Below are positions 6,222 to 47,300 of a DNA stretch of 47,300 nucleotides, in pieces. The position numbers and the translations under genes were made by a program. The stretch lies in IMG/VR virus record IMGVR_UViG_3300033991_000022, positions 1 to 47,300 of that record; one strand, given 5' to 3'. Each line of letters opens with the position of its first letter. The stretch's first letter is position 1. The DNA comes from a virus. The notes under the pieces are model-generated. The model was not told the DNA's origin, did not search any database, and saw nothing but the letters and a program-made list of their open reading frames with translations.

Positions 6222-6861
6222 TCCAAAATCCAAAATCAGAACCGTCTCCCGGATGCGCGCCAAAGTAATAACCATCGGGAGCTAAATCGTTGAGTATATC
6301 CTCAATATCCTCAAGGATATAATCCCATTCTTCGTCCGGCGCGTCATCAGATAAAGCGCAATACTCCGCCAGCAAACGCTGAATTACCGGCAACTGGTCT
6401 AAGTTTAACCTCGTCGCCATCGCTTCTGCAAGTTCGATAAAGCAGGGTACTAAATCATCGGCGCGTAAAGTGCCAGAGGATATAGGGCCGATATACTCCA
6501 GCTTTATTGCCTGCTCTCTGCGTATTTCCCACTCCTTATACCAGCTTCCCCAACTCGTCAATTCAAACTTCGCCTCCTTTATATTATAAAGAAGTGTTGG
6601 GGAATAGACATCACCAAAGTTGATGTACTCAGCTATTGGAGTACAGCCGTCCTTATCGTAAAGAGCTTCGACTCCGTAGCCGCAAAGAATAGCATCGGCT
6701 CGTAACAGTCTTTCATACGGAGTCAAGTGGGTATATTGCAATAACTCGGAAAGGAAAACTAAGTCATCTGACTCCGCTAGATTAAAGTGGTTTGCTATTT
6801 CCTTCGTGGACAGCGGGAGCTGTCTGCCCGAACAGCTACGCTGTTCAGCTGTCAAATTCAT
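6208..6861 (-). CDS. Hypothetical protein carrying an inserted palindromic peptide at its N-terminus
   Basis: A 217-aa acidic protein of unknown function. Excellent ribosome site (AAGGAGGTGAGTTAGA). Codons 5-19 are encoded by a 44-bp double-hairpin element giving AEQRSCSGRQLPLST, a peptide identical to one inside the heptose kinase at 10343. The rest (EIANHFNLAESDD onward) reads as an ordinary globular protein, so the element appears to have inserted just after the start. The C-terminus ends in the 6176-6221 hairpin. Confidence 0.6.
   Translation of the reverse strand: MNLTAEQRSCSGRQLPLSTKEIANHFNLAESDDLVFLSELLQYTHLTPYERLLRADAILCGYGVEALYDKDGCTPIAEYINFGDVYSPTLLYNIKEAKFELTSWGSWYKEWEIRREQAIKLEYIGPISSGTLRADDLVPCFIELAEAMATRLNLDQLPVIQRLLAEYCALSDDAPDEEWDYILEDIEDILNDLAPDGYYFGAHPGDGSDFGFWKNPK
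6806..6849 (-). repeat. Double-hairpin palindromic element, copy A (in-frame)
   Basis: The element comprises hairpin 1 (GACAGC/GCTGTC), a TGCCC linker and hairpin 2 (GAACAGC/GCTGTTC). Its reverse complement is identical over all 44 bases to 10916-10959, and identity stops sharply at both ends. Relative to the coding strands both copies have the same orientation and reading frame. Confidence 0.9.
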
Positions 6862-9457: not shown

Positions 9458-9988
9458 ATGTTAGAGAAGGTAATAGAGCCGATAAGTATAGAGCGCAAAG
9501 TTCCTTTTGCGGACGAGTTCCGCCGGCTTGCAGACGACATAGCGACTTCTTTACGCATATCATTAGATGCAGACGACATCACTGACATAGAGGCTGCTGG
9601 GCGGCAGGCATTAGCGGCGATGCTGGCTTTATACGCTGATGGAGACTTGCCGCCGAAGCAGGCATTTACTTTTTTGAAGTCACTCGCAGAGCGTAAAACT
9701 CCTGACCCGGTGCAAAAGGTAGAGCAGACCACACAGGTAGACATGCGTGTGCTGGTACAGGGTTTAATTACCGACAATCCTGCTGCTTTACAATCTGCGT
9801 TGGACAGGGCTTCGGAGGCTCGCAGGGAGATAGCGGCTCGGTTACAAAACGACGCTCCTTTACAACTTTCATCCCCGACTGTAGATGGTGGTGTTTCTTT
9901 AACTCTCAAAGAGCCTGATGAGGTGCAGAACATAAGGACTGGGCATGATACCACAGATGACTGGCAAAGATTTCGTAACATTCCTTGA
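9458..9988 (+). CDS. Possible small terminase subunit
   Basis: A 176-aa acidic, mostly helical protein, the first gene of the rightward operon directly after a strong promoter. Its position near the large terminase, its size and its helical content fit a small terminase subunit (DNA recognition for packaging), but no diagnostic motif is visible and the assignment rests on context. The heptose genes lie between it and the large terminase. Its 3' end overlaps the cupin gene by 44 bases. Confidence 0.55.
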   Translation: MLEKVIEPISIERKVPFADEFRRLADDIATSLRISLDADDITDIEAAGRQALAAMLALYADGDLPPKQAFTFLKSLAERKTPDPVQKVEQTTQVDMRVLVQGLITDNPAALQSALDRASEARREIAARLQNDAPLQLSSPTVDGGVSLTLKEPDEVQNIRTGHDTTDDWQRFRNIP

Positions 9989-10322
9989 CTCTTTAAGATT
10001 CCCGCGTGATGATGCTCATAAATGGGGTTATCAGCTTCGCTTTCTCAATACTTCTCTTTATGCGGCTAAATTTCTCATCTTTACCAATTCCCTCCCAGGC
10101 TCTTTACATCATCACGCGGACAAGAAGGACGAAACGTTTATTTGTTTAGCTGGTAAGGTGTGGGTAGAGTGTCCAGACTCGGCTGGCTGCATAATGACGC
10201 CGGGCGATGTTTTTCACATCCCCTACTTTACAAAGCATCGCAGCAGGGCTTTAGAGTATCCTGCTGTTATTTTAGAGGTATCTACTGAGGATTCTGATGA
10301 GTACACGTTTAGGGTTACTTAG
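9945..10322 (+). CDS. Cupin-domain protein, probable sugar-modifying enzyme
   Basis: A 125-aa single cupin. Motif 1 is GSLHHHADKKDETFICLAGK (near residue 49) with metal-ligand His and Glu; motif 2 is PGDVFHIPYFTKH (near 84) with the fourth ligand His. Small cupins of this type include sugar isomerases and epimerases. Since it precedes a heptose kinase and phosphatase, a role in nucleotide-sugar or heptose metabolism is likely but the reaction cannot be read from sequence. The start is uncertain between 9945 and 9957. Confidence 0.7.
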   Translation: MIPQMTGKDFVTFLDSLRFPRDDAHKWGYQLRFLNTSLYAAKFLIFTNSLPGSLHHHADKKDETFICLAGKVWVECPDSAGCIMTPGDVFHIPYFTKHRSRALEYPAVILEVSTEDSDEYTFRVT

Positions 10323-10342
10323 TAAACTGGAGGCCGATAAAG

Positions 10343-11287
10343 ATGTATAAGAACTTTAGAATAGCTGTTATGGGTGACTTTATGGTAGACGAGTGGTGGA
10401 GAGCTGAGTCATTAAAGATTAGTCCCGAGGCACCGGTGCTGGATATTATCAATCCTGTGCTTATACAGAGAAGTGCAGGTGGGGCTGGTAACGTGGCGCG
10501 GAACTTGCTTGCGCTTGGTGCGCATGTAGACCTTTACGGTATTATAGGTGACGATGAGGTTGGTAATGCACTTTCTAATGAATTATCGGCTGCTGGAGCT
10601 GTATGGAAGGTAGATTGTGTCAGAGGCTTTGAGACACACCGTAAAATCAGGTACTGTGCTGATGGGAATGTACTTTTTAGAGTTAGCAAGGACAGGTGTA
10701 GGGCAGTACCGGAAAAGTGCGGAACTGTTCCAGTTCTAAATTACCATGCCTTTATAATCTCTGATTACAATAAAGGAGCTATGACTGAGACTACTATTAT
10801 GCGAGTTATGAGAGGTGCTCAGGAGAAGCCAGTCTTCGTAGACCCTAAGTTTGATAATATCTCTCTTTACAAGGGCGCAGAAATTATAAAGTTTAACAAG
10901 GCTGAGGCGCTGGCGGCTGAACAGCGTAGCTGTTCGGGCAGACAGCTCCCGCTGTCCACTCTGCAGAATCACGAATATTCGATATCGGTTTTGCAGGACA
11001 GACTTCTTGCTAATAACGTAGTAGTCACTTTAGGACATGCTGGGATGGAGGTAATAGACGAGGAGGGAAACATTACTGACATACCAGGCAGGGAGGTAGC
11101 TGTATCTGACGTTACCGGGGCTGGCGATACGGCGATAGCTGTATTGACTTTAGAATACTTGAGGAGCGGTGGAGATATAGTAAAGGCAGCATATTTAGCC
11201 AATTATGCTTGTTCTTTAGTGGTACAGAAGCGGATGACGGCTGTGGTGACGGTGGAAGAGTTACTGGAGGAACTCAATAATGAATAA
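10343..11287 (+). CDS. hldE: D-glycero-D-manno-heptose-7-phosphate kinase (HldE N-terminal domain type)
   Basis: A 314-aa PfkB/ribokinase-family sugar kinase: start VMGDFMVDEWW, substrate-loop AGGAGNVARN (near 45), catalytic DVTGAGDTAIA (near 256). The start and glycine loop match the RfaE/HldE kinase domain, which phosphorylates heptose-7-phosphate at C1. Bacterial HldE is about 475 aa with a C-terminal adenylyltransferase; that half is absent here, as in stand-alone HldA. Residues 192-206 (AEQRSCSGRQLPLST) come from an inserted 44-bp palindromic element placed after the KFNKAEA segment, where homologues have a variable loop. Ribosome site GGAGG; eight-base overlap with the phosphatase gene. 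Confidence 0.82.
   Translation: MYKNFRIAVMGDFMVDEWWRAESLKISPEAPVLDIINPVLIQRSAGGAGNVARNLLALGAHVDLYGIIGDDEVGNALSNELSAAGAVWKVDCVRGFETHRKIRYCADGNVLFRVSKDRCRAVPEKCGTVPVLNYHAFIISDYNKGAMTETTIMRVMRGAQEKPVFVDPKFDNISLYKGAEIIKFNKAEALAAEQRSCSGRQLPLSTLQNHEYSISVLQDRLLANNVVVTLGHAGMEVIDEEGNITDIPGREVAVSDVTGAGDTAIAVLTLEYLRSGGDIVKAAYLANYACSLVVQKRMTAVVTVEELLEELNNE
10916..10959 (+). repeat. Double-hairpin palindromic element, copy B (in-frame, in the heptose kinase)
   Basis: Identical over 44 bases to the reverse complement of 6806-6849, and read in the same frame, giving the same 15-residue peptide. The sharp loss of identity at both ends marks it as a discrete inserted unit rather than shared gene ancestry. 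Confidence 0.9.
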
Positions 11288-11954
11288 AGCAATTTTTATG
11301 GATAGGGATGGTGTAATAAACAAGTGGGAGCATGGTGATAAAGATGTTCCCGAAAGCTGGTATGTACTCAAGTGGGAGGATTTCGAGTTCTTGCCGGGAG
11401 TTATGGATGCTTTCAAATTGATAGCTGCGTCTGATTACTTAGCTATTATAGTTAGTAATCAGTCAGGAATAGAGCGTGGGTTTGCGACTTATGATGAAAT
11501 TGACGGGATATTTGATTTTATGTCTTCTGAGATTTACGATGGGGCTGGAATAATGCCGGAGTATTACTTTTGTCCTCACTCTCCGGATGCTGGTTGTGCT
11601 TGTCGTAAGCCTTCGCCTGGGATGCTTTACAAGGCTGCGATAGAGCATGATATAGACTTATCAAAGAGTTGGATGGTGGGGGATAGTGATACGGATATTT
11701 GGGCTGCAAAGGCTGCTGGTATTACTAAGCTAATTAAGGTTATTGATTGTGGAAGGTACAAAGAACTTAAAGAGATGTCCGAAATAGAGCGTGGGTTTGC
11801 GACTTATGATGAAATTGACGGGATATTTGATTTTATGTCTTCCGGCGCAACGGTTGCTTTAGGTGCGCCTGAGATGTATTGTTATTTTGTACCTCGTTTG
11901 TTTCGAGCTGTAGAGTTTATACTAGAGTTAGACGGTGGGTGCTGCTCCATATGA
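11280..11954 (+). CDS. gmhB: D-glycero-D-manno-heptose-1,7-bisphosphate phosphatase (GmhB) with internal duplication
   Basis: A HAD-family phosphatase with all GmhB signatures: nucleophile motif FMDRDGVIN (D8, D10), SNQSG (59-63), zinc-loop CPH...CAC (C98, H100, C106, C108), RKPSPG (109-114), and GDSDTD (134-139). It would remove the C7 phosphate from heptose-1,7-bisphosphate, the step after the kinase. Family length is about 180-190 aa; here it is 224 aa because residues 64-83 are duplicated exactly at 169-188, followed by an unrelated tail. The catalytic core is intact. It overlaps the terminase start (ATGA). Confidence 0.85.
   Translation: MNKAIFMDRDGVINKWEHGDKDVPESWYVLKWEDFEFLPGVMDAFKLIAASDYLAIIVSNQSGIERGFATYDEIDGIFDFMSSEIYDGAGIMPEYYFCPHSPDAGCACRKPSPGMLYKAAIEHDIDLSKSWMVGDSDTDIWAAKAAGITKLIKVIDCGRYKELKEMSEIERGFATYDEIDGIFDFMSSGATVALGAPEMYCYFVPRLFRAVEFILELDGGCCSI
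11468..11527 (+). repeat. 60-bp exact direct repeat, copy 1
   Basis: Identical to 11783-11842 (offset 315 bases, 105 codons, so in frame). It lies in the GmhB core just after the SNQSG motif. Confidence 0.95.
11783..11842 (+). repeat. 60-bp exact direct repeat, copy 2
   Basis: Second copy near the GmhB C-terminus. Identity without a single silent change implies a recent duplication or ongoing homogenisation. Confidence 0.95.
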
Positions 11955-13668: not shown

Positions 13669-14018
13669 CTATTGAGCAAGCGTTTATAACAACTGATATT
13701 ATAGCAATAGAGAATATAGTTATGTCGATGCCGAGATTGATTGCTGGTGCGTGGGGTAGAGTTAGTTATCATACTAAGAGTGCTGCAGGGATACTATCTG
13801 ACGTGACTTCTACATCGATAGTTGTAAAAGATATTACTGGTACTATCAGGGTTACATATACGGCTGGTAATTTAGTAAAGGTTGCGACAGGCAAATATAG
13901 GTATGATTTTCAGATTCCAGTTGTAGCCTTGTATGGAGATTGGCATGTGGTTATAACCTGCTCGCTTGGAGATAGAGAAGCGGTAAGAACTGTGCATTTT
14001 CAGGTAACGGAAAAATGA
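13665..14018 (+). CDS. Ig-like beta-sandwich structural protein
   Basis: A 117-aa protein, beta-rich after residue 45, with an alternation such as GTIRVTYTAGNLVKV and a final VRTVHFQVTEK strand that resembles small Ig-like virion domains. The exact place in the particle is unknown. ATGA overlaps at both ends. Confidence 0.5.
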   Translation: MTIEQAFITTDIIAIENIVMSMPRLIAGAWGRVSYHTKSAAGILSDVTSTSIVVKDITGTIRVTYTAGNLVKVATGKYRYDFQIPVVALYGDWHVVITCSLGDREAVRTVHFQVTEK

Positions 14019-14371
14019 TAAGAGTTGTTGAGACGCTGGTAGACCCGGCGTCATTAATAGAGCCCTGGATGGGGTATATAGCGATAGGGACAAGCAATAC
14101 TGCTGTAGATGGTGCTCTGGCATTAGTTGCCGAAGTATGCAGGAAGGCAGCTAGTGTTAGGGTGGTTTCTAATACTTATTTTGCTTCTGCTAGTTTTGGC
14201 CAGGATGAACCTACTGACGATGGATTGTTAATATACGAGGTTGGGTTGTTTGATTCGCTATCTGGTGGCAATATGGCACACCGATGGGTACTTGATACTG
14301 GTATTGCCAAAGACAATATAGATGAGTTTGTTACAGAATGTGCTATTACAGTATTGCATGGGAGTGCATAA
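14015..14371 (+). CDS. Virion-associated protein, paralogue of the 20668 gene
   Basis: A 118-aa protein with the pattern YIAIGTSNTAVDGALALVAE near residue 20 and YEVGLFDSLSGGNMAHRW near 74, which aligns with REVGIFDELAGGKMAVRW in the 156-aa protein at 20668. The IGTG...E-x-R and E(V/I)G(I/L)F pattern is common in phage fibre or tail-associated proteins. A phage with two copies probably uses them at two positions of the particle. Confidence 0.55.
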   Translation: MIRVVETLVDPASLIEPWMGYIAIGTSNTAVDGALALVAEVCRKAASVRVVSNTYFASASFGQDEPTDDGLLIYEVGLFDSLSGGNMAHRWVLDTGIAKDNIDEFVTECAITVLHGSA

Positions 14372-20179: not shown

Positions 20180-20668
20180 TTGGCTGAATCTAAAGTTAAA
20201 GAAACTGCTGTTGAACCGAAAGTTGAAAAAACTGCTGTTGACCCGATGGTAGAGATACTTCAGAGGGCTATCCCTCCACAGTTGAGGGATAAACTTGAAC
20301 AGTTGGAAGCAGAGCATGAGAGTAACTACAGGCTTCATCCTGATATGGTTGCCGTTTTTGATATAAGTACGAATGCTTCGTCTTTGATAGATGGTGTTCC
20401 GCCTTATTATGATGTTGTTACGGGTTCTAAGTTAGACCATGATATTCGAGGAGACGGAGCTAAAGCAGAGCATACTAAACAGGGTTTGAGAATAACTGAT
20501 AGATATGATATAGTCTATAACTTTGTTCCAAAGACGGAATTTATTTACAGGTATACAGTTATACCTCGTAAAGAGTGGGATGAGTATATAAAGAACAGAA
20601 AGCCCGGTATGGTAACTCCTGCACAGGAGTTGGCTGGTCAGATGTTGAGAGCAGGCGGGGCGACTTAA
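20180..20668 (+). CDS. Hypothetical virion-region protein, 162 aa, TTG start
   Basis: The N-terminus has a short repeated motif (KETAVEP / EKTAVDP), a helical middle, then a mixed region. TTG start with GAGGAGATG seven bases upstream. It lies between head genes and the glycosylation island. Function unknown. Confidence 0.6.
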   Translation: MAESKVKETAVEPKVEKTAVDPMVEILQRAIPPQLRDKLEQLEAEHESNYRLHPDMVAVFDISTNASSLIDGVPPYYDVVTGSKLDHDIRGDGAKAEHTKQGLRITDRYDIVYNFVPKTEFIYRYTVIPRKEWDEYIKNRKPGMVTPAQELAGQMLRAGGAT

Positions 20669-21138
20669 TGAAATTCAAGCTTGACCTGAAGATACAGACA
20701 GCAGTGGAGATAAACGGCAAGAGAGTTAATGCTATTGACCAGGTGACAATGGTTGGCTTAGAGTCTGTAGCTTCATGTCTTGGCTCGCCTCATACTTTTC
20801 CCTGGCCCTGGATGCCTTTTATTGGATTAGGTCAGGGGAAAACTCCAGTATCTTCTGAAGATACTCATTTAGACAGGGAGATATTCAGAAAGTACGGAGA
20901 TGTTTTTGCGTCCGGGCTTTCGTACCGAGTGCGGGCGGTCTTTACAAATACACCGGAGGTTTTAGAGCCTGGTGAAGATTATATTTTAAGGGAGGTGGGC
21001 ATATTTGATGAGTTGGCTGGAGGTAAGATGGCGGTCAGGTGGTTGCTTGAAGATGATATTTATGTATGGACGGCTGAAACAGAGCCGACCGATATTACAG
21101 GGATTGATTGCACTTGCATAGTCTGGGTAACAAGTTAA
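20668..21138 (+). CDS. Virion-associated protein, paralogue of the 14015 gene
   Basis: A 156-aa protein sharing the FIGLGQGKTPV ... LDREIFRKY ... REVGIFDELAGGKMAVRW pattern with the 14015 protein. The longer N-terminus (KLDLKIQTAVEINGKRV) is specific to this copy. Probably a tail- or fibre-associated protein. Start ATG overlaps the previous stop. Confidence 0.55.
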   Translation: MKFKLDLKIQTAVEINGKRVNAIDQVTMVGLESVASCLGSPHTFPWPWMPFIGLGQGKTPVSSEDTHLDREIFRKYGDVFASGLSYRVRAVFTNTPEVLEPGEDYILREVGIFDELAGGKMAVRWLLEDDIYVWTAETEPTDITGIDCTCIVWVTS

Positions 21139-22064
21139 GCGATAATGAGATACTGGAGATAGTAAAGCAACGGAGCGGTGCCTGGGTATTCCACAGACCT
21201 GTTGGTGGAATAGGAGATGCCGTTATGCTGCTTCCTGCTATTACTGCTCTAAAGAAGCAGGTAGGTAATGATTTGCTGGTGGTATCTTGTGTTGATTATA
21301 TAGCTCCAGTATTTGAGCATCATCCTTATGTAGATTACGTTATGAGTTACACAGGTGCTGAAATAAGCGAAGGCAAAGATGAAGTGGTACTTGGCGAGTT
21401 GGAGAATGCTGGTTCAGTGATTCACAGATACTACCACCCATGTCCTGCTTCTGTATACGAAGCAGAGCATAATCCAGATATTACAAAGCCGAGACAGGAT
21501 ATATTTTGTGAGCATGCCGGTGTCGAGTTTGATATTAACAACTATTGTCTTACTCTTACACGAGAGGAAAAGGAGCTTCCGTTTAGCGAGCTAAAGGGTA
21601 TGAGGTATATCGTGGTTCAGGTTCGCAGTCATGATTTATGGAGAAATTACTTGCATATGAAATGGCTGCTTGATGAACTTGCTTGGGTTGGTAAGAAAAA
21701 GGATTTTTTGGTTGTTACTGTTGACTCGGCTATTGACCCTGGTATGAAGGGTGTTGTATCTTATACTCACAAAAGCCTTCGCTGGATATTTGGTATGATA
21801 AGCGGTGCAATGTTACTTATAGGCCCGGATTCTGCCTTTGTTCATGTCGCTGGTGCACTTAACGTACCGATATTGGGATTGTTTGGGCCGACAAATCCAG
21901 CAGTTAGATTGCGGTATCATAATGCTCATTGGATGCCGCGCTTCAAGAGATGCCCGAGGCAGTATTGCTGGTACAAGGCGTGTGCTTGGCGTTTTTGTTT
22001 AGCGACTCTTAGACCGCGTAAAATAATACGCAGAGTGAAAGATTTAATTATGGAGGCTGTATGA
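21108..22064 (+). CDS. Family 9 glycosyltransferase, ADP-heptose:LPS heptosyltransferase-like
   Basis: A 318-aa GT9 protein with the N-terminal GGIGDAVMLLPAI glycine turn (near 33) and the C-terminal nucleotide-sugar site (LLIGPDSAFVHVAGALNVPI, then LGLFGPTNP) that defines heptosyltransferases. Such enzymes add heptose from ADP-heptose to the inner core of LPS. The C-terminal Cys cluster (CPRQYCWYKACAWRFC) is also found in GT9 relatives. The start is uncertain: a TTG at 21108 overlapping the previous gene by 31 bases, or a TTG six bases on. It heads the sugar island between capsid and adaptor genes. Confidence 0.8.
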   Translation: MHLHSLGNKLSDNEILEIVKQRSGAWVFHRPVGGIGDAVMLLPAITALKKQVGNDLLVVSCVDYIAPVFEHHPYVDYVMSYTGAEISEGKDEVVLGELENAGSVIHRYYHPCPASVYEAEHNPDITKPRQDIFCEHAGVEFDINNYCLTLTREEKELPFSELKGMRYIVVQVRSHDLWRNYLHMKWLLDELAWVGKKKDFLVVTVDSAIDPGMKGVVSYTHKSLRWIFGMISGAMLLIGPDSAFVHVAGALNVPILGLFGPTNPAVRLRYHNAHWMPRFKRCPRQYCWYKACAWRFCLATLRPRKIIRRVKDLIMEAV

Positions 22065-22834
22065 TGTTCAGGAGAAAATTGGAAGCTATTGTTGAAGGTT
22101 CTAATATTAGGAGTAGCAATATTGATAAGTTACTGAATGATGCTCTTGAGTCATACGACAAAGAGTATTGTCTGGATGTTGGGGTTGGGCATGATGATGG
22201 CGGTAAATATACTACTGTAGATATTGAGAAAGATGTAGGTGCAGACATTGTTGGCGATATAAGATGTTGCTTTGCTGCATCGGATTATTACCGGGACATG
22301 AAGGTAGAGTACTCTGACCTGAATAAAATAAAACCTGGACACTTCATGGTTGTTAGACTGAAGCATATGATAGAGCATGTAGAGTGGATATATCTGCCAG
22401 GGCTGTTTGAGTGGGTGCACAGTATTCTTAGAGGTGGTGGACTGGTAGTAATAGATACTCCGAACCTTGATTATATTACTAGGGTTTACGTAGACCAGCG
22501 GAATAGGCAGCAAGAGAAAAAGGTTCTCAGGTATCCGGCCAAAGAATATCCGGGGCTTGATACGGGCAAACCCGGAGATTTGCAAAAGTGGGTAAACTTC
22601 AAGTTGTACTCAGGATGTTCTCCTGGCGACTTTCACCATGCTTGTCTAAATAGGACTTTATTATATGGGTTACTTGAGCGGGTTGGGTTTGCAGATATTG
22701 GAATATGTGATGGCGAGACTCTTAGAGCAGTAGCTTATAAAGTTAGCGAAGATTCGGAGAGTCTTCAAGCAATAATAAGCCGGCAGCTTGGAGGTGATGA
22801 GCGAAATGAATCTCAATTTAGGCTGTGGCGGTGA
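22061..22834 (+). CDS. SAM-dependent methyltransferase (class I-like)
   Basis: A 257-aa protein with an AdoMet-fold outline: CLDVGVGHDDGG (motif I, near 37), YTTVDIEKDVGADIVGDI (motif II), and RGGGLVVIDTPNLDYI (near 128), as in type-11/12 methyltransferases that modify sugars. The target is probably a glycan, given the flanking GT9 genes. The second ATG (22064) is better spaced from GGAGG than the first. Confidence 0.65.
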   Translation: MMFRRKLEAIVEGSNIRSSNIDKLLNDALESYDKEYCLDVGVGHDDGGKYTTVDIEKDVGADIVGDIRCCFAASDYYRDMKVEYSDLNKIKPGHFMVVRLKHMIEHVEWIYLPGLFEWVHSILRGGGLVVIDTPNLDYITRVYVDQRNRQQEKKVLRYPAKEYPGLDTGKPGDLQKWVNFKLYSGCSPGDFHHACLNRTLLYGLLERVGFADIGICDGETLRAVAYKVSEDSESLQAIISRQLGGDERNESQFRLWR

Positions 22835-24194
22835 TATTCGTAGCGAAGAAGGCTGGATAAATATAGATTGCAGAAAGTTGGATGGAGTTGACATGGTATA
22901 TGATTTAGAGACTGACAATTTGCCCTATGCTCCTGAATCTGTATCTCATGTTGAGATGAAGGATTTTTTGGAACATATTAGCAGATTTAGAAGAGTAAGT
23001 TTGCTTCAGAATGTCTATGATTTATTAAAGCCCTGGGGTACAATATTTGTTCAAGTTCCGCACATGAAGGTCTTGGCCGAGAGGTATCTGAATGTAATGA
23101 AAAATCCATCTCCTCTTCAACATCCTCTCGATGCGGAGACTTTCGCTGCTTGTCTTTATGGCGGTCAGGATTATCCAGGTAATTTTCACAAGTGGGGTTA
23201 TGATGAAGATTCGCTGTGTGTGCTTTTGAATAAAGTCGGCTTCCAGGTTACAGATATAGGCGACGATGGTGGGTCTAACATGCTTTGTAGAGCATTAAAG
23301 ACTCCTGAAGATGCTCATGTTTATTTGGCTGTTGGCGGAGGTCTTGGTGATGCGATTCAGGTTTACTTATCTAGTCCGGTTACATATCACCACTTGCCTG
23401 AAGTTCTCTGGCCGAATGATGAATATCCGTGTACTGATTCTGTATCTGCGTTATGGTTCAGGCGTCTCAAGGACTTCAAGGAGAAGCATCCAAAGACAAC
23501 GCTGACGCTATTTGTTCAGAGTCACAATAAAGCAACAGCAGACTTGTTTGAATATAATCCTTATATTGACGAGATAGAGGTAGTAAAGTTGGAAGAACAG
23601 AGAAATTGGGGTGCTGACCAGGGAGAGATAAAACCTCTCAAATCTGTCTTTGGGTATATGCACTTTAAGCCTTCGGAGCCGGACATTTATCTTAACAGTG
23701 AAGAAAGCGAACTTGTTGGGAATATTCTAAAGAGAGGTAAGTATATAGTTATGCATCCGTTTGCCGGGCCAGTTGAGCGAGAACCCGTGTCAATAAGTGT
23801 ATATGAGAGAATAGCAGAAGAGATTGTGGAGCGAGGGTTCAACGTTGTTGTAGTTGGAGCAGATTCCGGTAAGCGCAGAGCCTTCTTTCCTAATTCGCGC
23901 AAAGGTATTGTAAGCCTTGTAAACCGGGTAAGTGTTAGAGTGTCTGTAGAATTGTTGCTGTATTGCAGTGGGTTTGTTGGTACAAGTAGTTCTATGATAC
24001 TTGTGGCATGGTACAAGCAAGTTCATACGGTTTGTATTGTGCCCCCTTTACATGATGCAGGACAGCTCTGGGAGGAGTTTTGGTCAAGTAATAATCCAAC
24101 AGCATGGGGAGCAGATAAGCCATTTAATAAAACCTTTATTGTTTCTGATGATGGTGAACTGGATATACAGGAGGTTGTTAAATGGGTAACATAA
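22806..24194 (+). CDS. Two-domain methyltransferase-GT9 fusion
   Basis: About 462 aa. The N-terminal half begins MNLNLGCGGDIR, a textbook AdoMet motif I, followed by VEMKDFLEHISRF and LLKPWGTIFVQVPH as in methyltransferase family 11. The C-terminal half restarts with VYLAVGGGLGDAIQV (a GT9 N-terminal glycine turn) and ends with the GT9 donor-site outline (IVMHPFAGP, then CSGFVGTSSSMILVAWY). One protein may thus both methylate and transfer a sugar. The start is placed at 22806, where GGAGGTG lies upstream, overlapping the previous gene by 29 bases. Confidence 0.65.
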   Translation: MNLNLGCGGDIRSEEGWINIDCRKLDGVDMVYDLETDNLPYAPESVSHVEMKDFLEHISRFRRVSLLQNVYDLLKPWGTIFVQVPHMKVLAERYLNVMKNPSPLQHPLDAETFAACLYGGQDYPGNFHKWGYDEDSLCVLLNKVGFQVTDIGDDGGSNMLCRALKTPEDAHVYLAVGGGLGDAIQVYLSSPVTYHHLPEVLWPNDEYPCTDSVSALWFRRLKDFKEKHPKTTLTLFVQSHNKATADLFEYNPYIDEIEVVKLEEQRNWGADQGEIKPLKSVFGYMHFKPSEPDIYLNSEESELVGNILKRGKYIVMHPFAGPVEREPVSISVYERIAEEIVERGFNVVVVGADSGKRRAFFPNSRKGIVSLVNRVSVRVSVELLLYCSGFVGTSSSMILVAWYKQVHTVCIVPPLHDAGQLWEEFWSSNNPTAWGADKPFNKTFIVSDDGELDIQEVVKWVT

Positions 24195-24775
24195 ATGTGT
24201 TCCTTTATAATTGCAGGAGATATTTGTTAGCTTCTGATCCCGGAGAACGTGCAGTTGAAGTTCCTATTGTGCTTGATTTGATTAAGGACTGTCAGTTTTC
24301 AGATATGCTTGAGGTTGGCAACGTACTGAGTAACTGGATAGGTTTCCAAGATTCTGAGCATAAGATTGTTGATAAGTACGAGAAGTCACCTATAGTAGAG
24401 AACGTTGACATAGTTGATTATATATCTGATTGTAAGTACTCATGGATTATTTGTATTTCGACTATTGAGCATATTGGCAGAGATGAACCTGGAGAGCAAA
24501 ATCCAGATAAGCCTCTTGCTGCGTATAATAATATGAAGTCTTTGCTTGCGCCTGGCGGAATAATGGTTGTTACCTGGCCAGTTGGGTATAATCTGGATTT
24601 AGACAAGCAGTTTGCTGATGGTTTGTTTGACTTTACCTATATTGACTATATGATTCGAGTTTCGCATGAGCGAGAGTGGAGACAGTGCGAGTGGGAAGAT
24701 GTTAAGGACTGCCAATACGGAACTCCATATTATGCTGGACATGGTCTGGTAATAGCTTATTATATAAAGGTATAA
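24182..24775 (+). CDS. Probable methyltransferase, degenerate motif I
   Basis: A 197-aa protein: DMLEVGNVLSNWIGF stands where motif I would be, but the usual G-x-G is missing; later ICISTIEHIGRDE and LLAPGGIMVVTWPVGYN match motifs IV-V of sugar methyltransferases. It could be active with an atypical cofactor loop or be a diverged partner of the fusion protein. Good ribosome site (GGAGG) and 13-base overlap with the upstream gene. Confidence 0.55.
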   Translation: MGNINVFLYNCRRYLLASDPGERAVEVPIVLDLIKDCQFSDMLEVGNVLSNWIGFQDSEHKIVDKYEKSPIVENVDIVDYISDCKYSWIICISTIEHIGRDEPGEQNPDKPLAAYNNMKSLLAPGGIMVVTWPVGYNLDLDKQFADGLFDFTYIDYMIRVSHEREWRQCEWEDVKDCQYGTPYYAGHGLVIAYYIKV

Positions 24776-43503: not shown

Positions 43504-43723
43504 TTTCTCCTCCGCAAGGCTCAATTAGTAACCTCCTTCCGTCCTCTCTAATAACATCCGCAAGAGACAAAGCATCTTCGATATTCTCAAGTATTACCTT
43601 AAGTTTTTTGTCGTCCAGCGAACATTTATCAATGTCATTGGCTAACGTCTTTGCCTGTACAGCAAGACGACACAGACGCAAGTAAATATGGTCTTTGATA
43701 TTTGCACGTAATTCAACTCTCAT
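43487..43723 (-). CDS. Hypothetical protein, 78 aa
   Basis: A small protein with a helical core (KLKVILENIEDALSLADVI) and a short Cys/Gly tail. Ribosome site GGAGGAGGATGAGTT. ATGA-type overlap with the helicase gene upstream and 17-base overlap downstream. Confidence 0.55.
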   Translation of the reverse strand: MRVELRANIKDHIYLRLCRLAVQAKTLANDIDKCSLDDKKLKVILENIEDALSLADVIREDGRRLLIEPCGGENGRTD

Positions 43724-45960
43724 AACTCATCCTCCTCCTCTATTACAGATTTAGCTTTCTTCTTCTCTGGATGCAGCAATGTATGAAAGAAGTCTCTGCC
43801 AGTAGGAGTCTTTCTATTCTGTCCTCTGGAAGTAATCTCTAACATATTTGTATTGAGAAGATAAGAAAGCAATTCATTAACATCGTTATCACCAAGCTTC
43901 AAAGAAGTTTTTATGTGAGATTTGGTAAAGACGTTAGTTTGCAGCATCCAACGAGCCATATTCTCCCATAAACCCGGCCAGCTAGTCTTAAAATCTAGCA
44001 GCATACGGTCAAATACCTCGTCAGGGATAACTGCTTTTGCATAGTCAGCAGAATATCCCCAGTAATCCAAAGCGGGCGACTTGTAAAGACGCTCAAGGAA
44101 ATGCACAGCAGAAGCAACATGCTCTTTTGTGACAATCAAATGCTTGCCATCATCTGTACTATATGTCCTGCCAGCTAGTGCTGTTGCTATTCTAACTATC
44201 TTTAACCTGATGTCAGCACTTTCTACAAGTGGAATACCAGGCACGTACTCACTTGCTAATTCTCTAGCAACTTCAAGCACATATTTCTCTGTGTCATAGT
44301 CAATAACAATATCCTCTGGTCTGCGTGTCCATACCCAGAGAATAAGGTTGCGACATAACTCGGCATTATAAGGATTACCAATCTTTTCTAATGCTCTTAC
44401 ATCAGTGTTAATTGTCTTATCATCTACATCTCCAGCCATCAATCCTACTGCGTAGTCAAACCTCCTTATATCTTCCAGTCCATGAAATGCTGGAACGTCT
44501 GGTATAGACATTACGGGATAGCCGTAACTTCCCATTGGAATGCCTGTTCTAGGATTAGAGATACATATTAGTCTCGTCTCTGCCTTTGCAGTTCCAAAGG
44601 CATATCTTTTCACGTCCACTATTCCGCTGCTTCTTACCAATGTAAACTCTCTGAAGTCTGCCGGCATAATAGCATGTGCTTCATCTATAGCTACAAGTAA
44701 ACCATTAGCTCTGCATAGCAGACCAAAACTTACCCACGCGTCTTCCCCCTTTACCACCTGCACATTGTAAAGCAGACCGGTGCGAGAAGCCGTTTCCCCA
44801 GCGGCATAAGTACCGAGGTTATAATACCCCATTAGCTGCTTTACGGTTTCAGTCTTGCCCTGCCCGGTATCGCCTATAATGAGTATATCCATCCAGCCCT
44901 TGATGATTCTTTTCTGAAATGGAATCCATCGAGCAGAATGATATACAGCATCGACAGCTAATATCAAATCATCTCTACCAAAGATGAAGATGAAGTCGGA
45001 AATCATGCAGCGATGTATATCGTTGATTTTATCCATTACAGTCTGGTCGCTGTTGGGTTGGAAGATACTTAACTTGTCCAGTTCATCTCTGGGCAAATCA
45101 AATGTTTCCAGCGATGAAGCCAGTTGCTCAGCCTTATCAACTATAAAGGTGGCCACCAGAGACCGAGGATGAGAATACACTCTCCCATGAAAGTTATATC
45201 CTCTGTTAAGCTGAAGTCCATGCTGTAACAGGATAGCTCTAACCTTTGTCATGGATTCTTCAACCTTGAAATCAGCCTTGACTCTTGACGCAAGATATAT
45301 GATCTGAGCGTTTGACCATTCAACCTCATACCTAAAATCAGTGCATCTTGACTCTACACCAAAGATGCGCTTTACTCTGTGCATCAATCCCTCTGCGCTC
45401 ATATCTATAAGCTCAAGAGTCTTTATGTTCTTAGCATCAAATATCAATGTCCGCTCATTACGAGCATGTTCAACATTAAGGTATTGAAGCATACCACAGC
45501 GCGTACACGCTTTGGAATCCGGGTTTGGAATACAGTGACCAACAATTTTACTTGGAACTAGCAACTCTTTGTGGTCTTTACCTATTGCATCTGCCTCGAT
45601 TACAACAGGCATGTTCATATTCTCAGCAAGAGCAAAATCATGGAGGGAAACCTCCTTTGCTTTAACCTCCGCGACCTTGCATCCTTCACACAGTGCTTTA
45701 TCTAATCCGCATGACAGCATCGAGCCGCAGCTAAAACTATACTGCGGCGAGCTATATACTGCCCGGAGAACAGCTTGCGATTGAGTCTGGCGCTCCCGGC
45801 TATCTTCCACATGAGTCAAAGAATCGGGAATACTGGCAGCCCAACCAGTTATCCACTGATTAGCAGTTTCAATGGACACTCCACTATCCTTAAAATATCC
45901 AGCCAGAGCCATGTCAGCCCGGTTCTTTGTACCTAACTCAGCTAGGCCGTTCTCCAACAA
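43720..45960 (-). CDS. MCM-like AAA+ replicative helicase with primase C-terminal domain
   Basis: A frame of at least 746 aa. Residues 1-45 look like a primase C-terminal helical domain (GTKNRADMALAGYFKDSGVS), followed by a Cys cluster (C78, C84, C91, C94) and a zinc-ribbon-like pair (CTRCG, 152-155). The ATPase domain has Walker A GDTGQGKT (363-370), ASRTGLLYN, Walker B LVAIDEAH (422-429), and sensor 1 ISNPRTG (467-473), in the MCM order. The frame opens with TTG lacking any ribosome site. In frame further upstream (to 45990) it encodes SGGAPACVKFLL, a typical linker before this domain, so it is probably expressed by a -1 frameshift from the primase gene (see 45990-45996). The fusion would be about 988 aa. 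Confidence 0.8.
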   Translation of the reverse strand: MLENGLAELGTKNRADMALAGYFKDSGVSIETANQWITGWAASIPDSLTHVEDSRERQTQSQAVLRAVYSSPQYSFSCGSMLSCGLDKALCEGCKVAEVKAKEVSLHDFALAENMNMPVVIEADAIGKDHKELLVPSKIVGHCIPNPDSKACTRCGMLQYLNVEHARNERTLIFDAKNIKTLELIDMSAEGLMHRVKRIFGVESRCTDFRYEVEWSNAQIIYLASRVKADFKVEESMTKVRAILLQHGLQLNRGYNFHGRVYSHPRSLVATFIVDKAEQLASSLETFDLPRDELDKLSIFQPNSDQTVMDKINDIHRCMISDFIFIFGRDDLILAVDAVYHSARWIPFQKRIIKGWMDILIIGDTGQGKTETVKQLMGYYNLGTYAAGETASRTGLLYNVQVVKGEDAWVSFGLLCRANGLLVAIDEAHAIMPADFREFTLVRSSGIVDVKRYAFGTAKAETRLICISNPRTGIPMGSYGYPVMSIPDVPAFHGLEDIRRFDYAVGLMAGDVDDKTINTDVRALEKIGNPYNAELCRNLILWVWTRRPEDIVIDYDTEKYVLEVARELASEYVPGIPLVESADIRLKIVRIATALAGRTYSTDDGKHLIVTKEHVASAVHFLERLYKSPALDYWGYSADYAKAVIPDEVFDRMLLDFKTSWPGLWENMARWMLQTNVFTKSHIKTSLKLGDNDVNELLSYLLNTNMLEITSRGQNRKTPTGRDFFHTLLHPEKKKAKSVIEEEDEL

Positions 45961-46685
45961 GAACTTGACACAAGCCGGCGCGCCCCCGGAAAAAAATATG
46001 CTACTGGCTCTGATTCTAAGACTCGCTGTCGGTCTTGGTATTCTTGTCCAGAGGAACTATATAAAGTTTGGAGTCCGCTCGATAGCTCAACAGTTTCTCC
46101 GTGTACCAACCCTTCCACCACCAGTGGTTCTTTCGCTCTATCCCTAATATCCTCGGCTGTTGCAGTGCGAAAATCTCCGAGTTCAATTCTTCTCTTGTAC
46201 AAACCGCTTTTAGCATGACGTGTTCCGTCAATCCTCCACATCCTCCGGCGCGAATATACCCGCTTATCGAGAGTCGTGAGTCCAAGCTGCGCTGCAATCC
46301 TTTCAGCCAAGTGCCTCCAGATATATGTAAGCTCAGGACTCGGCTCAGCACCAAAAGCCACTGCGTCAACAGTAATATGAAATCCTCTGTTCCCTGAAAA
46401 CCATATAGCCGGCTCCACTTCAAATCCTGTAAGAAAATAATCAACAATGAACCTCGCCTCTTTAAGGCTAAGGTCAAATGTGTCAGAGTCCAGGTCGATA
46501 AAGAACGGACACCAGTGCGGCTCGTTGTCTCGCGCCGCAGGTGACGCAAAGGTCTGAATAGTAGAAAAGAGATTCTCTCTTCCTGCATTTGCTTCTACCC
46601 ATCCTTTCAGGTCTGCACGAAGAATCCTCTCCCAACGAGGAGAAGTCTCGTGCTTTACATCTACATATCGGTATTCTTCCCACAT
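45942..46685 (-). CDS. Archaeo-eukaryotic-type primase (AEP/PrimPol family)
   Basis: A 247-aa primase with the three AEP motifs: metal-binding FFIDLDSD (D64, D66), nucleotide-binding SGNRGFHI (97-104, catalytic H103), and MWRIDGTRH (acid D153). AEPs lay RNA or DNA primers, and some polymerise DNA, which may matter since no DNA polymerase is visible in the window. Strong ribosome site (GAAGGAGGAGGACGA) at 46685. After the T7 run at 45990-45996 the last 15 residues look non-homologous (RRLVSSSCWRTA), consistent with a frameshift release peptide. Confidence 0.82.
   Translation of the reverse strand: MWEEYRYVDVKHETSPRWERILRADLKGWVEANAGRENLFSTIQTFASPAARDNEPHWCPFFIDLDSDTFDLSLKEARFIVDYFLTGFEVEPAIWFSGNRGFHITVDAVAFGAEPSPELTYIWRHLAERIAAQLGLTTLDKRVYSRRRMWRIDGTRHAKSGLYKRRIELGDFRTATAEDIRDRAKEPLVVEGLVHGETVELSSGLQTLYSSSGQEYQDRQRVLESEPVAYFFPGARRLVSSSCWRTA
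45990..45996 (-). promoter_or_regulatory. Predicted -1 ribosomal frameshift site (T TTT TTT)
   Basis: On the coding strand the primase reads TAT-TTT-TTT-CCG. The heptamer T TTT TTT is in the canonical X XXY YYZ phase. Slippage by one base continues as TCC GGG GGC and joins the helicase frame exactly. GC-rich DNA (CCGGGGGCGCGCCGG) follows immediately and could form a short stem. Transcriptional slippage on the T run, or a homopolymer sequencing error (T8 read as T7), would give the same joined product. Confidence 0.6.
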
Positions 46686-46897
46686 TCGTCCTCCTCCTTC
46701 AGGCGAGAAAATAGTCCTCGCTCTATACATTCACGAAACATCTCATGACCATTAAGATGCTTCATAGTTTCTTTGGGATACTTCCCAACTAGGTAAGAGA
46801 GAGTATTCAACTCCTCATCAGTCAATCGGGTAGAAAACCCAGAAGTGCTCGGGTCTTGAACTCCTCCTGGGTATTGTAGAAATCTTTTCTTCTTCAA
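46661..46897 (-). CDS. Hypothetical protein, 78 aa, TTG start
   Basis: Basic start (MKKKRFLQYPGGVQDP), then an acidic helical part (LTDEELNTLSYLVGKYP). TTG at 46897 with AAGGAG eight bases upstream; an earlier TTG at 46924 lacks a good site. It overlaps the primase start by 25 bases. Function unknown. Confidence 0.45.
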   Translation of the reverse strand: MKKKRFLQYPGGVQDPSTSGFSTRLTDEELNTLSYLVGKYPKETMKHLNGHEMFRECIERGLFSRLKEEDECGKNTDM

Positions 46898-46997: not shown

Positions 46998-47280
46998 CCG
47001 CAGGCATAGCAACGACTTGCACCTCCCTTGCCATAACTCTCCCTTGAAGCCCATTGAAAGCCTCGACGTAATTACTGCCTGGGAATCGAGTTTCAAGAGT
47101 AGATAACAGACCTTCGATATTAGGAACACCTTTCAGTCTATTATATACATCATCCTCTATCAATTCAGTAACATAGTCCTTACGAGACTTGCCACTAAGT
47201 TGAGTTACGAAGTCCATAAGAGACTTCAACCCTACATCTATCCCCATCCAGACTCCGGTTGTCTCCTTGTCTTTACTCAT
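46978..47280 (-). CDS. Hypothetical protein, 100 aa (full copy)
   Basis: A small protein with a helical KDYVTELIEDDVYNRLKG segment and a hydrophobic C-terminal strand (VMAREVQVVAMP). Ribosome site GGAGGTGAAACAG. On the circle it follows the methyltransferase gene. Residue 13 is Gly here and Glu in the partial copy at 1-165. Function unknown; a ribbon-helix-helix-like regulator is one possibility. Confidence 0.65.
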   Translation of the reverse strand: MSKDKETTGVWMGIDVGLKSLMDFVTQLSGKSRKDYVTELIEDDVYNRLKGVPNIEGLLSTLETRFPGSNYVEAFNGLQGRVMAREVQVVAMPADVPAGN

Positions 47281-47300
47281 TCCTGTTTCACCTCCTGTAA
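47116..47300. repeat. Direct terminal repeat, right copy
   Basis: Matches 1-185 except C47243 versus T128. See the left copy. The gene order across the junction is continuous (same strand, normal spacing), which supports closing the genome into a circle here. Confidence 0.95.

Follow-up and report, generated by a model that had tools for sequence, protein, structure and literature searches.

A frame break at a T7 run in a phage primase-helicase gene related to PHROG 18685

Domain order and the closest described systems

In a known protein family, PHROG 18685, an AEP primase, a PriCT-like linker and an MCM-like ATPase are normally fused; an example is the 1,027-aa product BboS125_00046 of phage vB_BboS-125, annotated as 'DNA primase small subunit'. 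A related architecture is that of the PrimQH family in the PrimPol-PV1 supergroup, in which AEP is combined with a PriCT/Zn domain and a helicase, in some cases MCM (PMC5862659). In another group of systems, the -1 frameshifting of dnaX and the IS3 family, a heptamer in canonical phase lies ahead of an overlapping -1 frame. We compared with these systems a locus of the window, the 47,300-nt stretch of DNA analyzed here, which is an entire virus record of IMG/VR. Homology shows that minus-strand positions 46730-43720 of the window form a single gene encoding a phage replication protein, in which AEP primase, PriCT-like linker and MCM-like helicase make up one chain of ∼1,000 aa. The single profile phrog_18685 (1,028 positions) matched both pieces of this gene collinearly, the primase piece at profile positions 9-209 (E 1.5e-34) and the helicase piece at 258-1006 (E 1.2e-78). 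The sequence-only reading had derived one AEP/linker/MCM-like protein from two frames, and the collinear match bears this out, so the annotation is corrected to one primase-helicase gene instead of two. In domain order and length the locus is like PHROG 18685, but the relatives in that family have one uninterrupted ORF, whereas in the window the frame changes at a T7 run (A7 on the plus strand) at 45996-45990, minus strand. The window copy is a frame-broken homologue of PHROG 18685 and not an intact member.

The primase frame (45942..46730, minus) encodes 262 aa and carries the AEP (PriS-like) domain, with the motifs FIDLDSD and SGNRGFHI. The presence of this domain at the N-terminus, as in PHROG 18685, is given by the profile match and by a match to the PriS structure 1zt2 (E 1.6e-7); the score against the NCBIfam PriS profile was far under that profile's cut-off. 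After the T run the frame continues for its last 15 residues, PGARRLVSSSCWRTA, to the stop at 45942. The helicase frame (43720..45990, minus) is -1 relative to the primase frame, stays open over 46056-43720, and accounts for the C-terminal three quarters of the joint protein. Directly after the T run it reads SGGAPACVKFLLENG, and it contains the PriCT-like linker, a cysteine cluster and an MCM-like AAA+ ATPase with a Walker A (GDTGQGKTE) and a Walker B (LLVAIDEAH) motif. Matches to Pfam MCM (28.7 bits, cut-off 23.3) and to MCM structures (E to 1e-8) place this ATPase at the C-terminus, again as in PHROG 18685. A Pfam search for PriCT gave no match in the window or its near relatives, and in relative L002 PriCT_1 was seen at E 0.001, just below the cut-off; a PriCT-like linker between primase and helicase is likely in view of this relative. 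The order of AEP, PriCT-like/cysteine-rich region and MCM-like ATPase resembles that of PrimQH, but the window primase matches archaeal PriS weakly and PriCT_1 is found only in a relative, below cut-off.

The helicase ORF was listed as starting at a TTG at 45960. Two separate genes would then be present, a free primase and a helicase translated from this TTG, perhaps coupled translationally to the primase stop, which lies just downstream of it, and helicase-only forms do occur in two distant relatives (L110 and L111, ∼27% identity). However, direct reading showed no Shine-Dalgarno-like sequence at the TTG, which sits within conserved sequence; conserved linker residues upstream of it would be lost, and the near relatives are all fused. 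The TTG is thus not a real gene start and the helicase frame has no credible start of its own, in agreement with the suspicion raised earlier from the missing ribosome site. We regard a two-gene arrangement as highly improbable.

The T7 run and the frame change

We examined the point at which the two frames meet. The minus strand reads ...GTA GCA TAT TTT TTT CCG GGG GCG..., in which the first T of the T7 run is codon position 3. The run therefore forms T_TTT_TTT in canonical -1 phase, a slippery heptamer of the type X_XXY_YYZ in the phase of the zero frame. When aligned with the continuous 1,032-aa protein of relative G001, the window followed one frame (-1, BLAST numbering) down to 45999 and resumed in another (-3, BLAST numbering) from 45993, which locates the frame change at the T run, exactly where it had been placed before. 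Past the run the two frames overlap (45942..45989, minus), and in an alignment of this segment with 11 relatives the -1 frame was found to encode the conserved linker P-x-C-V-K-F-L-L-E, while the 0 frame encodes an unconserved tail followed by the stop. The earlier description of an unrelated-looking primase tail after a T7 in canonical phase, and of a linker beginning right at the slip, was confirmed, and coding sequence in the -1 frame begins with the first codons past the run. The continuous relatives contain only 3 T7 runs in 243,408 nt of sense-strand sequence, giving an expectation of ∼0.0014 for the 115-nt stretch in which the frame must change. Because T7 is so rare in these genes, its coincidence with the frame change is not due to chance and the two are linked. 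This shows slippage of some kind at the T run, by a ribosome, a polymerase or in sequencing/assembly; the link itself does not discriminate between ribosomal slippage, DNA-polymerase slippage and a sequencing/assembly slip.

With programmed -1 ribosomal frameshifting, most ribosomes would stop at 45942 and release free primase, and a fraction would slip and make the primase-helicase. The heptamer is in canonical phase and both codons re-pair perfectly in the -1 frame, which is coding immediately past the run and leads into a helicase without an independent start. Canonical phase by itself, however, has a 1 in 3 chance of arising after a one-base loss in any T run. We also searched for the signals that accompany such sites. 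By the rules for SD-like stimulators in PMC4066793 (GAGG, GGAG, AGGA, GGNGG or AGGKG, 6-17 nt before the motif), no such element was present in the 30 nt upstream of the heptamer. A branched hairpin of 65 nt (-20.4 kcal/mol, or -0.31 kcal/mol per nt) could form 4-10 nt past the motif, but among positions drawn at random from the gene 12% offered a hairpin as good or better, and the z-scores of the downstream fold were -0.69 and -0.99. Neither the heptamer nor the frame break is conserved in relatives: each of the 74 distinct full-length relatives has a continuous gene (see below) and the nearest lack the heptamer. The window thus has in common with dnaX and the IS3 family the heptamer in canonical phase ahead of an overlapping -1 frame, but not an SD-like stimulator or conservation of heptamer or break, nor, as far as hairpins go, an exceptional structure. 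Our literature search on frameshifting at U UUU UUU found no paper. We consider programmed frameshifting improbable, and saw no specific evidence in its favor. The idea that free primase and fusion together set a primase-to-helicase ratio is accordingly left unsupported, the break being private to this contig, the upstream SD-like stimulator absent and the downstream hairpin unremarkable.

Slippage of RNA polymerase at the run would instead yield a mixed mRNA population, part of which encodes the fusion. A homopolymeric T run lies exactly at the frame change, and in bacteria A/T runs are known sites of transcriptional slippage (PMC1088944). According to the same study, however, the evidence of selection and the functional cases center on runs of 9, with some of 8, and the run here is only 7 long and not conserved in relatives. 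Transcriptional slippage therefore appears very unlikely, more so than its ribosomal counterpart.

Relatives and the origin of the break

We surveyed the form of this gene in 80 loci from IMG/VR and in L101, in phage records and bacterial genomes, and on a plasmid; among bacterial genome contigs, query A1 gave 11 relatives and query A3 gave none. With the whole-protein profile, 74 distinct ORFs from all surveyed sets run unbroken from primase through helicase, and no surveyed relative is split at the site equivalent to the T7. One continuous gene is present in Bacillus phage vB_BboS-125, Weizmannia phage Youna2, Arthrobacter phage Wollypog, Microbacterium phage Hiddenleaf and isolate ctIqW946, and likewise on a Bacillus velezensis plasmid. 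The other 20 matches are contig-end cuts (L023, L059, L079 and L109), ORFs with unrecognized N-termini, and distant genes for helicase only (the two mentioned above) or primase only (P23-45, L008, from a phage that has a DnaB helicase). Those with unrecognized N-termini are single ORFs of ∼950-1,000 aa whose N-terminus was missed by the profile, and they probably carry other primase types within the same ORF. The nearest relatives, L007, L011, L101 and L012 (43-52% identity), are uninterrupted across the site, and no slippery heptamer was present at the aligned position in the 11 aligned relatives or in L101. A search of viral contigs with a DNA pattern of variable gap found no sibling contig spanning the site with any length of T run, in a set from which records very close to the window may have been left out; query P0001 found no viral relatives, and a nucleotide-level search of phages found no relative.

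Since 74 relatives are continuous and none is split at this site, the fused form is the norm of the family and frameshifting is not needed to obtain it. The check proposed earlier, to look for a fused form in related phages, thus found that form, whereas the -1 frameshift as the means of fusion was not supported, given the continuous relatives and the lack of a heptamer in the nearest ones. The frame break is private to the window contig, and lone frame breaks of this kind, confirmed by homology, are the signature that PMC3711429 assigns to sequencing errors or recent indels. In E. coli genes, U7 is rarer than expected in each of the three frames, and slippage in transcription or frequent indels have been named as possible reasons (PMC4066793).

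Taken together, these data strongly suggest an ordinary phage primase-helicase gene whose frame was broken by a one-base change in a T homopolymer, either as an assembly error or as a recent mutation. As all complete close relatives found are uninterrupted, such an origin is most likely, in preference to a programmed switch. The gene at 46730-43720, if intact, would encode the continuous protein seen in relatives, and in this contig its frame is probably broken by a change of one base in the length of the homopolymer at 45996-45990. The break would have arisen as a consensus/assembly error or, in the phage that was sampled, as a recent mutation by replication slippage, and of these we favor the error, which we take to be about twice as likely. 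The break would then be no regulatory device, the functional product being the continuous protein; if the T7 is truly present in the phage, a small fraction of ribosomes would be expected to restore the frame as an accidental rescue. Against an error or mutation we count that the rest of the contig has no other frame break, that the T7 shows the canonical -1 phase, and that a slip there yields exactly the expected protein. If the T7 is real, a new, lineage-specific -1 frameshift could have turned a single ancestral gene into one for free primase and fusion, which we consider improbable to a slightly greater degree than programmed frameshifting in general. Should frameshifting nonetheless be true, this would be a rare replicative phage primase-helicase that gains a second, primase-only product. 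The case advises caution where a homopolymer heptamer in a metagenomic contig is read as recoding before relatives have been compared.

We also assessed the quality of the contig. Its ends overlap directly by 185 nt (1-185 and 47116-47300), so that the genome, though classed linear, is probably complete and circularly mapping, with ∼47.1 kb. The overlap contains one mismatch at position 128 (T vs C), which indicates some error or strain mixture in the assembly. When the window genes were set against every ORF of four related records, the break at the T7 was the only frame break among comparable genes; homology shows the gene containing a T8 run at 354-361 to be intact. A generally error-prone contig was rejected as a possibility, as the other comparable genes are in frame. 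A single indel at a homopolymer is ordinary in 47 kb of metagenomic assembly.

In the same comparison, multi-frame matches resembling paralogues were seen for the gene pairs 14015/20668 and 22061/22788, and the neighboring genes 37637 and 39379 were both matched by one long relative protein. The small genes 14015-14371 and 20668-21138, in the structural region, are paralogous, and both copies are also present in G001 and G002. The window gene 22806-24194 matches two successive ORFs in G003, in which a frame break or gene split is possible.

Other features of the genome

Two repeats were observed elsewhere in the window. A 66-nt stretch occurs twice (97%), at 11462-11527 and 11777-11842, within ORF 11280-11954, a HAD-type, GmhB-like phosphatase, and encodes IERGFATYDEIDGIFDFMSS twice; it is either a real duplication or a misassembly. 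A 49-nt element of two adjacent palindromes is present at 6806-6854 and, in inverted orientation, at 10911-10959. It is in frame in two unrelated ORFs, both of which give EQRSCSGRQLPLST, and it is similar in form to mobile double-hairpin elements; a search of other viral contigs for its 28-nt core found no copy.

Genes named by reading their sequence include, at 9945-11954, a sugar kinase (HldE-like) and the GmhB-like phosphatase beside a cupin, and, at 21108-24775, several glycosyltransferase/methyltransferase-like genes. The content of these two regions suggests a role in surface-sugar metabolism.
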